This document shows, piece by piece, positions 17,142 through 21,185 of a stretch of 64,000 bases of DNA. The stretch's first letter is position 1. Each line of letters begins with the position of its first letter. The DNA comes from Bacillota bacterium. Its GTDB lineage: Bacteria; Bacillota; Sulfobacillia; Sulfobacillales; Sulfobacillaceae. The translations under genes were made by a program, and so were the position numbers. The stretch spans positions 186,001 to 250,000 of the forward strand of contig JAIMBD010000001.1 in the NCBI GenBank assembly GCA_023511625.1, in the 5' to 3' direction. Below the pieces are notes generated by a model, which had not been told where the DNA came from, did not search any database, and worked only from the letters and a program-made list of their open reading frames with translations.

Positions 17142-17171
17142 TTGAGCGCGAATGGAAAAAGCAGGTAGAAT
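17142..17171 (+). promoter_or_regulatory. Sigma-A-like promoter
   Basis: TTGAGC (17142-17147), 18-bp spacer, TAGAAT (17166-17171), about 29 bases before the GTG of the nitrilase-amidohydrolase fusion gene. Confidence 0.5.
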
Positions 17172-17199: not shown

Positions 17200-18657
17200 G
17201 TGAAGCCTCGCGTGGCGATGGCTCAAGCTCCGCACGTGCGCGATCCCGAGCTGGCGCTGGCGCGCCTAGGTCGCCAGATGCAATGGGCGGCAGAGCGGGG
17301 CGCCGAGGTGATCCTCTTTCCCGAATGGTATCTGGGCTTAAACCCGGTCGAGCCCCTTCCCAACCGATGGGTTCAAGCCGTTGGGCATTGGGCCCGCGAA
17401 CTTGGCCTTTTGGTGGTGACCGGCAGCGTGCGGGCCTTGGATCCGGAAACCGGCAAAAAACAGCAGCGCGGTCTGGTGATCGACCGCGACGGGCGGTTGG
17501 TCGGCACCCAGGCCAAACTGAACGTGGCGCCGGTGGAGCGGCCCTGGTTCGAACCGGGCAACGGGCTGAACCCCATCGCCACCCGTTTGGGATGCGTGGT
17601 CCTGCTGTTGGGCTTGGATGCCTTAGATGCTGAGCTGTGGCGCGAGGCCTTGCACCTCGGTCCGGACTTGGTGGTGATGACCGCCTTGGCCCGCTCGCCC
17701 CACGAGCGCGACGCGTTGCGAGCGCTGGCCGTGACGCGCAGCCGGGAACTTAGGGGGCTGGTGGCTTGGGTTCCCCTCATGGGGCGGTTCTCGGGCAGTC
17801 AGCACGTGGGCGGCGGTGTCCTGGCCCAGGACGGGGAGCTGGTGCTGGCGGCCGAAGACCAGGAGGGGGTCTGGGTCTTGGGCGAGGTCGAGGCGCCCAC
17901 AGTGCAGCTCGGGGTCACCGATGTCTCGGCCAGCCTGGGGCCAAAGCGCGAGGTGGCGCCGGAGGCCGAACGGCGGGTGGTGGCCGATTGGCGGTGGCTG
18001 CGCAGCAGCGATTGGTTGCCGGCGGCCCAGGCGGCGCTGGAGGCCGCGACCGACAACCCCCGCCAGGTGGTGTTGGTGCCCATTCGCCCCGGCACTGTGC
18101 GGGAGGTCGAGCGCCTGTTGGCCGGTGGGGCCGGTGGCGGCTTTACGTGTCCCGGCATCGACCGCGTCTATCCGTGGTCAGACGCGTTCATGCAGGTGGG
18201 CGCGGCGTTGCAACGGGCACGCCGGCCGATGGTGGTGGAAACCGTGGAGGCGGGCGCGCCACTTCGGTTTGCGCGGCCCGTGGAGTGGGACGACTTCCTC
18301 TTCAGCTTTCCTGACGTGCCGGTGGTCTTTCTCCACCTGGGCGGGCGCTCGCCGTTCTTCGAAGAGGCCTTGCGGATGGCCGAGCGCCACCGGCAGGTGT
18401 GGCTGGAGACCTCGGAGGCGCCGCCGGAGGCAGTGCGCGAGGCGTGGGCGGCCTTGGGCCCCGAACGCCTGGTGTTCGGAAGCGGCGGATCCCGCGCCGA
18501 CTTTTCCCGCGAATGGGGGAAGTGGCAGGCGTTGGCGCCAGATCTGCCATCGGCGGGGATAAAGGCGGTGGTCAACGCCAACGGGCGACGGCTCTTTTTT
18601 GACCCGGGCCAGGTCGAGGAACGGCCGAAACCGTTTCAGGTCCTGCGTCCCGGATGA
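17200..18657 (+). CDS. Nitrilase-like/amidohydrolase-like fusion, both halves degenerate
   Basis: Protein of 485 residues. Residues about 1-250 match the carbon-nitrogen hydrolase fold: catalytic Glu42 in LFPEWYLG and Lys106 in TQAKLNVAP are kept. In the nucleophile elbow, LLGLDALDAELWR aligns with the family lICyDlrFPElyR, so glycine (Gly138) replaces the catalytic cysteine. Residues about 310-480 resemble the C-terminal part of amidohydrolase-2 TIM barrels (FPDVPVVFLHLGGRSPF, then LGPERLVFGSGG, then VVNANGRRLFF). There the usual GSD metal aspartate is Gly and the N-terminal HxH is absent. GTG 17200 has AGGGGGGACCG upstream. A binding or scaffold role seems likelier than hydrolysis, but this is inference. 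Confidence 0.65.
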   Translation: MKPRVAMAQAPHVRDPELALARLGRQMQWAAERGAEVILFPEWYLGLNPVEPLPNRWVQAVGHWARELGLLVVTGSVRALDPETGKKQQRGLVIDRDGRLVGTQAKLNVAPVERPWFEPGNGLNPIATRLGCVVLLLGLDALDAELWREALHLGPDLVVMTALARSPHERDALRALAVTRSRELRGLVAWVPLMGRFSGSQHVGGGVLAQDGELVLAAEDQEGVWVLGEVEAPTVQLGVTDVSASLGPKREVAPEAERRVVADWRWLRSSDWLPAAQAALEAATDNPRQVVLVPIRPGTVREVERLLAGGAGGGFTCPGIDRVYPWSDAFMQVGAALQRARRPMVVETVEAGAPLRFARPVEWDDFLFSFPDVPVVFLHLGGRSPFFEEALRMAERHRQVWLETSEAPPEAVREAWAALGPERLVFGSGGSRADFSREWGKWQALAPDLPSAGIKAVVNANGRRLFFDPGQVEERPKPFQVLRPG

Positions 18658-18920: not shown

Positions 18921-21185
18921 ATGGAGGCTGGTCTGCGCCTTGGCGTCGCCGGCCGCGCTGCCGTCACGCGCATCTTGCAGGGCTTGGGATTGGTGGCGCC
19001 ACCGCCTCGGGGGCCACAGGAGCTCAGCGTGGCGGGCTTGGACGGGGAGGTCCTGGTAGAACGCGACGAGCGGGGGATTCCCTGGATCCACGCCCGCAGC
19101 ATGCAGGACGCCCTCTTGGCCCAAGGGTACCTGCACGGATTAGAGCGCGGCTTTCAGATGGATCTCTGGCGGCGGCTGGCCACCGGGCGGTTGGCGGAGT
19201 GGTTTGGGGCGCCGGCGGTGGCCCACGACCGTTTCATGCGCCGCTTAAACTTCCGACACTGGGCAGAGGCCTCGACGGCCACTTGGTCGGAAAACACGCG
19301 CCGATATGTGGCGGCCTACGCTCGGGGCGTGAACCTGGCTTGGGCGGCCAAGCCGCTCGCCACCGAGTTCCGCCTGTTGCGCGCGCGCCCCGAACCGTGG
19401 CGGGAGTCGGACACCAATCTCCTGATCTTCTGGATGAGCTGGCTGCTCAATCGCGGCTGGTGGTTTCACTGGGCCCACCACCGGTTGGGAGGCGACCCCC
19501 TTGTGCGGGCGTGGCTCCTCGATCCCCTGCCGGAGGCGGCGCCGACCATCGTGTCGGGCACGGGGTCGGCCGTGGGCGGGGTTGGCCTCGGGTCGAACAG
19601 CTGGGCCGTGGCGCCGTGGCGGTCCGCCAGCGGGTTTCCCCTTCTGGCCAACGATCCCCATCTCGCTCCCACCTTTCCCGCGCCGTGGTACCTGATGATG
19701 ATTGAGGGCGGGGCCTTGCACGCTTTCGGGGCCACACTGCCAGGGGCACCAGGCGTGGTTATCGGGCAAAACCAAGAGATCGCCTGGGCCTTTACCAACC
19801 TCAACGCCGATGTCCACCGGCTGGTGCGGCTGGAATTGACCGGCGACGGCGGCCGCTACCGGGTTCAGGACCGCTGGGAACGGCTCGGGGTCCGCGAGGA
19901 GCATATCCGGGTGCGCGGTCAGGGGGAAGTGGTGCAGTGGTGCCGCGACAGCCATCTCGGACCGGTGGTGACCGAGCTTTCGCCCAAGGAAGTGGTGGTC
20001 TTGCACTGGACCGGCTTTGCTCCGCAATCCACCGTCCAGGCCTTGCTCGGGTTAAACCGCGCCCACGATTGGGAGAGCTTCAACTTGGCCCTGGCCGAGT
20101 GGGGGGTTCCGGTGCAGAGCGTGTTGTACGCCGACCGGTCGGGACACATCGGCTATGTGGCGGTGGGGCGGCTGCCGGCAGCTTCGGACACCGCCCCGGG
20201 CCTCGTCGACGGCAACGCCGGCGAGGGGGCGTTTTTGCGGTTCTGGGACTGGCAGGCGCATCCCCGCGCCTACGATCCCCCGGGCGGGATTTTGGTGGCG
20301 GCCAACAACCCTCCCGGCGGGGAGGTGCCGGTCCCAGGGTTCCACAGCCTGGGCTACCGCGCCCGGCGCATCGCCGAGCGCCTGTTGGCCGTGGAGCACC
20401 ATACGCCCAAGACCATGGCCGCCCTCTTCACCGACTGCTACTCGGCTCCGCTTTGGGAAGTCTGCCAGCGCCTGTTGGCCCAGTCGACGCTGCCCGAAGG
20501 GTGGCGGGAAGCCTTGGAGGCCTTTGACGGGCAGGTGCGGCCGGAGGCGGTGGCCCCCACCTTGCTCTACACCTTTTTGTTCGAAGCACTTCCCGATCCC
20601 GTGCGCCGGGCGTTGCGAGAACCGTTTTGGCCGGAGGCGCCTCGGGGTGGCCTGGGGCTTGCGCACCCTGCCCATTTCGGCTGGCTGCTGTACGAGCGGT
20701 TGGCTCCTGCCGTTCTCCGGTTTTGGGACGCCGTGGCGGTGCAGCCGGCATTGGCGCGCGCGCATCAGCGCGTGGTGCGGGACCTCGGGCACGACCGCGC
20801 GCGCTGGCGCTGGGGGGAGGCCTGCCCGGTGGTGCCGCTGCACCCGCTCGGGCGAGTGCGGGGCGTCGGGGCCGTCTTCGCCTTCCGGCCGCTGGCTGCG
20901 GGGGGCGATCTGTACTCGGTGCAACAGCTGGTCTGGGACCTAGACCCCGAGGGGCGGTGGCCGACTTCGGCGCTGGTGGTTCCCGGCCTGCGCCTGGTGA
21001 TGGACCTCGGGCACCCCCAAGAATCGTGTGGGGTGGTCTTCCCGGGCCAGTCTGGCCATCCGACGTCGCCGCACGCGGCAGACCAAGTGGCGAGCTGGCT
21101 CTTGGGGGAACTCGGGCCGGTGGGTCCCGGGATGGAGGCCGGGGACTGGGTCACCTTGCGCCAAGACCGCCCCTGGCGGGGGTAG
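18921..21185 (+). CDS. Penicillin acylase family hydrolase (S45, Ntn)
   Basis: Protein of 754 residues, the usual precursor length. The alpha part has VERDERGIPWIHARSMQDALLAQGYLHGLERGFQMDLWRR split over residues 48-88. The beta subunit starts at the autoproteolytic Gly-Ser in GSNSWAVAP; Ser225 is the N-terminal nucleophile. PLLANDPHL, the calcium/oxyanion region, follows. PGAPGVVIGQNQEIAWAFTN is also typical. The family cleaves amides such as acyl-homoserine lactones, cyclic lipopeptides or beta-lactam side chains; substrate cannot be deduced. No clear signal peptide is seen, which is odd for a family that is commonly exported. ATG 18921 follows TAAGGAGG at 12 bases. Confidence 0.85.
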   Translation: MEAGLRLGVAGRAAVTRILQGLGLVAPPPRGPQELSVAGLDGEVLVERDERGIPWIHARSMQDALLAQGYLHGLERGFQMDLWRRLATGRLAEWFGAPAVAHDRFMRRLNFRHWAEASTATWSENTRRYVAAYARGVNLAWAAKPLATEFRLLRARPEPWRESDTNLLIFWMSWLLNRGWWFHWAHHRLGGDPLVRAWLLDPLPEAAPTIVSGTGSAVGGVGLGSNSWAVAPWRSASGFPLLANDPHLAPTFPAPWYLMMIEGGALHAFGATLPGAPGVVIGQNQEIAWAFTNLNADVHRLVRLELTGDGGRYRVQDRWERLGVREEHIRVRGQGEVVQWCRDSHLGPVVTELSPKEVVVLHWTGFAPQSTVQALLGLNRAHDWESFNLALAEWGVPVQSVLYADRSGHIGYVAVGRLPAASDTAPGLVDGNAGEGAFLRFWDWQAHPRAYDPPGGILVAANNPPGGEVPVPGFHSLGYRARRIAERLLAVEHHTPKTMAALFTDCYSAPLWEVCQRLLAQSTLPEGWREALEAFDGQVRPEAVAPTLLYTFLFEALPDPVRRALREPFWPEAPRGGLGLAHPAHFGWLLYERLAPAVLRFWDAVAVQPALARAHQRVVRDLGHDRARWRWGEACPVVPLHPLGRVRGVGAVFAFRPLAAGGDLYSVQQLVWDLDPEGRWPTSALVVPGLRLVMDLGHPQESCGVVFPGQSGHPTSPHAADQVASWLLGELGPVGPGMEAGDWVTLRQDRPWRG

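Follow-up and report, generated by a model that had tools for sequence, protein, structure and literature searches.

Among the nearest solved folds to the protein described here are those of the nitrilase superfamily (PF00795), represented by the N-carbamoylputrescine amidohydrolase MtCPA (PDB 5h8k), PH0642 (1j31) and the C146A variant of the latter (6ypa). The protein, a fusion, resembles this superfamily in its fold over residues 1-228, in its Glu-Lys-Glu residues and in an Asp located two residues past the nucleophile site, yet diverges from it in that the Cys is replaced by an invariant Gly and in that an amidohydrolase-like domain is attached. An N-terminal nitrilase domain within a two-domain protein is also found in NitFhit (1ems) and in the glutamine-dependent NAD+ synthetase (5kha), although the second domain of these proteins differs from that of the fusion. 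The nitrilase domains of both keep the Cys. As regards the second half, the fusion shares a sequence profile over residues 257-466 with the Amidohydro_2 family (PF04909), for which BB4693 (3irs) is the nearest solved chain; unlike that family, however, the fusion possesses no HxH motif, carries Gly in place of the metal-site Asp and has this domain positioned behind a nitrilase domain. From its sequence BB4693 itself also seems to be without some ligand positions, since it exhibits FGTA at the GSD site and MMTGG at the usual His in the alignment.

A nitrilase-superfamily protein without the Cys has previously been described in the form of BCG_2279c, a mycobacterial Lnt homologue in which Cys387 is changed to Ser and which, upon knock-out of the active enzyme, did not substitute for it (PMC3850990). 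Like the fusion, it is encoded by a genome with an intact paralogue, while it differs in being Lnt-type, in carrying Ser rather than Gly and in lacking an amidohydrolase-like domain. Neither BCG_2279c nor BB4693 represents a nitrilase/amidohydrolase fusion, and a literature search returned no published account of one. Pseudoenzymes that modulate an active partner, i.e., KIAA0157 with BRCC36 (PMC5106787) and the trypanosome prozyme (PMC6221367), are comparable in that a dead enzyme fold under selection works with a live relative. Partner contact has been demonstrated for these proteins, whereas for the fusion gene order alone suggests such contact and the partner is dispensable.

The fusion gene and its two altered active-site regions

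The fusion is encoded within the window, i.e., the entire analyzed stretch of 64,000 nucleotides, which derives from a 2.59 Mb genome of the order comprising Sulfobacillus and its relatives. Its features are as follows:

17200 to 18657, plus strand: fusion gene, pseudo-nitrilase plus pseudo-amidohydrolase by sequence, 485 amino acids
17209 to 17889, plus strand: nitrilase-fold domain, approximately residues 4-230 (PF00795 at residues 4-181; structure matches over residues 1-228)
17323 to 17325, plus strand: Glu42 codon, catalytic Glu kept (E in 36/36 covering sequences)
17515 to 17517, plus strand: Lys106 codon, catalytic Lys kept (K in 36/36)
17536 to 17538, plus strand: Glu113 codon, probable second catalytic Glu, assigned by spacing from the Lys (E in 36/36)
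17611 to 17613, plus strand: Gly138 codon, site of the nucleophilic Cys by alignment to 1f89 and intact nitrilases (G in 36/36)
17968 to 18597, plus strand: Amidohydro_2-like domain, residues 257-466 (PF04909, 1.6e-12)
18478 to 18489, plus strand: GSGG (residues 427-430), replacing the usual GSD metal-site motif (S, G and G in 36/36; first G in 35/36)

The open reading frame begins with a GTG at 17200, just 3' of an AGGGGGG stretch, while an alternative in-frame ATG at 17152 would add 16 residues that are absent in most relatives. An earlier note on this DNA had described a fusion of nitrilase-like and amidohydrolase-like domains, and this description is borne out by Pfam matches to CN_hydrolase (PF00795; 4e-12) and Amidohydro_2, both of which exceed the curated cut-offs. 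Among nineteen fusion members tested, the nitrilase domain was matched in all and the Amidohydro_2 profile in seventeen. The model of the fusion (mean pLDDT 85.7) returned structure matches of up to Z 29.2 (2.0 A over 224 residues), which support the alpha-beta-beta-alpha nitrilase fold; the Amidohydro_2-like half was also modelled confidently, and the structure-search matches for the whole model were filled by nitrilase folds.

Profile alignment placed Gly138 opposite the Cys of the GVGICYD motif of yeast Nit3 (1f89), and the same position was obtained against two intact nitrilases of the fusion's own genome and against the upstream partner nitrilase discussed below. The numbering in the earlier note, which had Glu42 and Lys106 retained and Gly138 at the Cys site, is correct; Glu113, which the note did not mention, is probably the superfamily's second catalytic Glu, judged by its spacing from the Lys. 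A catalytic Cys at a nearby position, which would have altered this assignment, was sought across the fusion family: no Cys is conserved at any position, the best Cys column amounting to 8/37, and Cys132 of the window protein corresponds to Arg, Lys, Thr or Ser in other fusions. Asp140, located two residues past the nucleophile position, is invariant in all covering fusions. Furthermore, around the four catalytic positions of the nitrilase half (up to two residues away), 9/20 columns are invariant versus 37/245 overall (P = 8e-4). This clustering, which three of the four former metal-site positions do not show, suggests that the nitrilase pocket is the functional site that the fusion has kept. 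Solved nitrilase-fold proteins with a Cys-to-Ala change carry, by their entry titles, glutaramide, butyramide and nicotinamide, and a pocket without the Cys can therefore bind.

In the amidohydrolase half, the HxH metal ligands of the first strand are absent, the fusion having DW and no His at this point, while the Asp of the GSD/GTD motif is replaced by Gly in all 36 covering sequences. The missing HxH and the reading of GSD as GSG had both been noted previously, and aligned stand-alone relatives from other Bacillota were found to keep HxH...H...H...GSD/GTD, small differences aside. The third ligand site (H347) is usually His, with E, A or R elsewhere and Glu in the window protein, while His, Ser or Ile occupies the fourth. 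Invariant columns do not cluster near the three His sites of this half that are lost or variable (2/15, P = 0.39), such clustering being seen around GSGG only. By sequence, the residues on which the Cys chemistry of nitrilases and the standard metal chemistry of amidohydrolases depend are missing from the fusion.

The same genome encodes a second nitrilase-family protein without the Cys (G000:C14:74404-75471, locus L107), which reads MANEG where genome-mates of 36-37% identity read CMDG, i.e., a change of Cys to Ala. Counterparts with 76-84% identity, all with Ala, are present in three other genomes of the order (L108, L109 and L110), while this type of protein is absent from most of the remaining ones.

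Distribution of the fusion and its upstream partner

Of the 42 genomes sampled from the order, 37 were found to carry the fusion, full-length or near so, a count that takes in the partial matches of G031 and G033, while a thirty-eighth genome (G012) carries the gene cut by a contig end. Every full-length case exhibits a frame of ~500 codons with no internal stops; Glu42, Lys106, Glu113, Gly138 and the Asp-to-Gly site are identical in all 36 sequences covering each; and whole-gene dN/dS in close fusion pairs, where dS could be estimated, ranges from 0.025 to 0.17. No full-length fusion was detected outside the order in 398 genomes of the phylum, and a contig scan of 84,980 species, based on two motifs such that a distant intact-Cys fusion would escape it, returned none beyond the order, every strong match being an order genome already found. 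Close homologues with intact residues, which the earlier note had named as a sign of simple decay, were not found in these searches, and neither was any relative with the Cys intact. Invariance within the order, low dN/dS and the lack of a full-length fusion elsewhere in the searches indicate that the losses of the Cys and of the metal ligands, as read from these sequences, are old and kept.

A stand-alone nitrilase-family gene is located upstream of the fusion on the same strand in 27 of 32 loci, mostly within 400 bp and, in one family, with a gap of only ~20-45 bp. Its product of ~345 residues carries Glu46, Lys170, Glu178 and Cys209, which are invariant in twelve aligned members, and its model (mean pLDDT 90.5) returned nitrilase-fold matches. 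As this arrangement is present in all three families of the order, it is probably ancestral. In the corrected tally of the 42 genomes, both genes are present in 34, the fusion only in four, the partner only in one and neither in three, two of the latter being 63-71% complete; across the order, a genome with one of these genes also tends to carry the other (Fisher P = 0.026, from counts that predate the G012 correction). A close paralogous relationship between the nitrilase half of the fusion and the partner was considered and is unsupported (hhalign probability 47%, 57 columns).

The partner is missing in the window species (G000), G001 and G002. The compact order fam1(-)/partner(+)/fusion(+), in which fam1 is a membrane-protein-like gene, occurs in G035, G008 and G016. 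In G002, the window species and the genus-mate of the latter, fam1 instead directly adjoins the fusion, which makes an in-place deletion of the partner probable. In G004 (L114:6845-8057) the partner is reduced to fragments upstream of an intact fusion, while in G036 (L113:2554-3113) fusion fragments lie behind an intact partner. The two genes are linked and not obligate, since the fusion survives alone in four genomes (G000, G001, G002 and G004) and the partner alone in G036.

In the genus of the window species the fusion exhibits a dN/dS of 0.29, and its identity between that species and the genus-mate, a metagenome assembly, is 59-60%, as against 61-86% for most nearby genes (ThiE-like and fam1, 61%; penicillin-amidase-like, 69%; FabH-like, 83%; ThiG-like, 86%; one other nearby ORF, 43%). 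As the fusion evolves faster in this genus, it may be under weaker constraint, or some relaxation, there. In a comparison aimed at relaxed constraint in species without the partner, otherwise-invariant positions are broken twelve times in each of the partner-less G000 and G001, but also eight times in G035, which is at a similar distance and has the partner, and 17 or 18 times in the more distant f2 family.

Other neighbors were observed at various loci. An HNH-nuclease-like gene is present in 23 of 32 loci, mostly right after the fusion (~1.6 kb past the fusion start in L052 and L059), and was not found beside the fusion in the window. There, a gene named penicillin-amidase-like by sequence reading lies downstream (18921-21185), its genus-mate copy, 69% identical, being ~8 kb downstream of the fusion. 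At L044, L059, L061 and others, a minus-strand run ~3-7 kb downstream of the fusion start comprises, by sequence reading, putative arginyl-tRNA synthetase, agmatinase-like, spermidine-synthase-like and pyruvoyl arginine-decarboxylase-like genes, and several loci have a putative urocanate-hydratase-like gene upstream, likewise named by sequence reading. With opposite strand and varying distance, a link of these polyamine and histidine genes to the fusion is only a lead.

Possible roles of a conserved double pseudoenzyme

That the fusion represents a conserved double pseudoenzyme under purifying selection is well supported at the sequence level. Its losses are shared by ~36 related acid-loving bacteria, in which an intact sister enzyme is usually encoded alongside, and the fusion is therefore probably not the product of a broken gene but a protein retained for a non-catalytic purpose, as a helper or a ligand binder. 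The earlier note had read the fusion as two inactive folds, and to this the present analysis adds conservation and the exclusion of decay, while the scaffold or ligand-sensing role that the note proposed keeps the standing of a proposal. We tentatively prefer a reading in which the nitrilase pocket (Glu42, Lys106, Glu113, Asp140 and neighboring residues) would bind, but not convert, a ligand resembling an amide, a carbamoyl compound or an acid, while the amidohydrolase-like half would provide a structural or interaction module. In most species, gene order and co-occurrence suggest that the fusion may assist or regulate the upstream intact nitrilase as one of its subunits, perhaps contacting it via the surfaces through which nitrilases usually dimerize. 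Where this partner is missing, as in the window species and three others, the fusion would work on its own.

It is somewhat unlikely that the protein is purely a scaffold, both folds offering only surfaces for protein interaction and the old pockets being structural leftovers. The absence of special conservation at three of four metal-site positions in the second half, for example the change of H347 to E, A or R, would fit such a role, but the strictly kept Glu, Lys and Glu together with an invariant Gly exceed what folding by itself should require, even if their retention for structural reasons is conceivable. The full conservation of those three residues and of Asp140 would suit an enzyme of different chemistry, in which a pocket enlarged by Gly138 would carry out, e.g., hydration, lysis or direct water attack with no covalent Cys intermediate. 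No conserved substitute Cys was found in the family, however, nor any precedent in the literature search, and we regard such an enzyme as improbable. A similarly low likelihood is assigned to a lineage-specific sensor or new non-covalent catalyst, in which the Cys-to-Gly pocket would pass its state through the dead amidohydrolase barrel to partner proteins.

That the fusion might be a dead subunit needed for the activity of the upstream nitrilase is consistent with their same-strand adjacency in most loci and in three families, with the short gap between them in one family and with their co-presence across the order, yet independent losses have left either gene without the other in five genomes, making an obligate heteromer very unlikely. 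Least probable is that a formerly bifunctional enzyme has simply decayed: although the faster evolution in the genus of the window species and the decayed copy of G036 point in that direction, the long open frames, the invariance of the substituted residues and the purifying selection evident from low dN/dS elsewhere lead us to reject it for the fusion family.

Two unrelated hydrolase folds have here been united in one protein, neither with its catalytic apparatus, and the combination persists across an order alongside an intact relative or, in some species, in the absence of one. Automatic annotation based on domains would label this protein a hydrolase twice, which serves as a warning. Bacterial pseudoenzymes have been little studied, and the set of fusions constitutes a natural series in which the role of a dead nitrilase may be tested.
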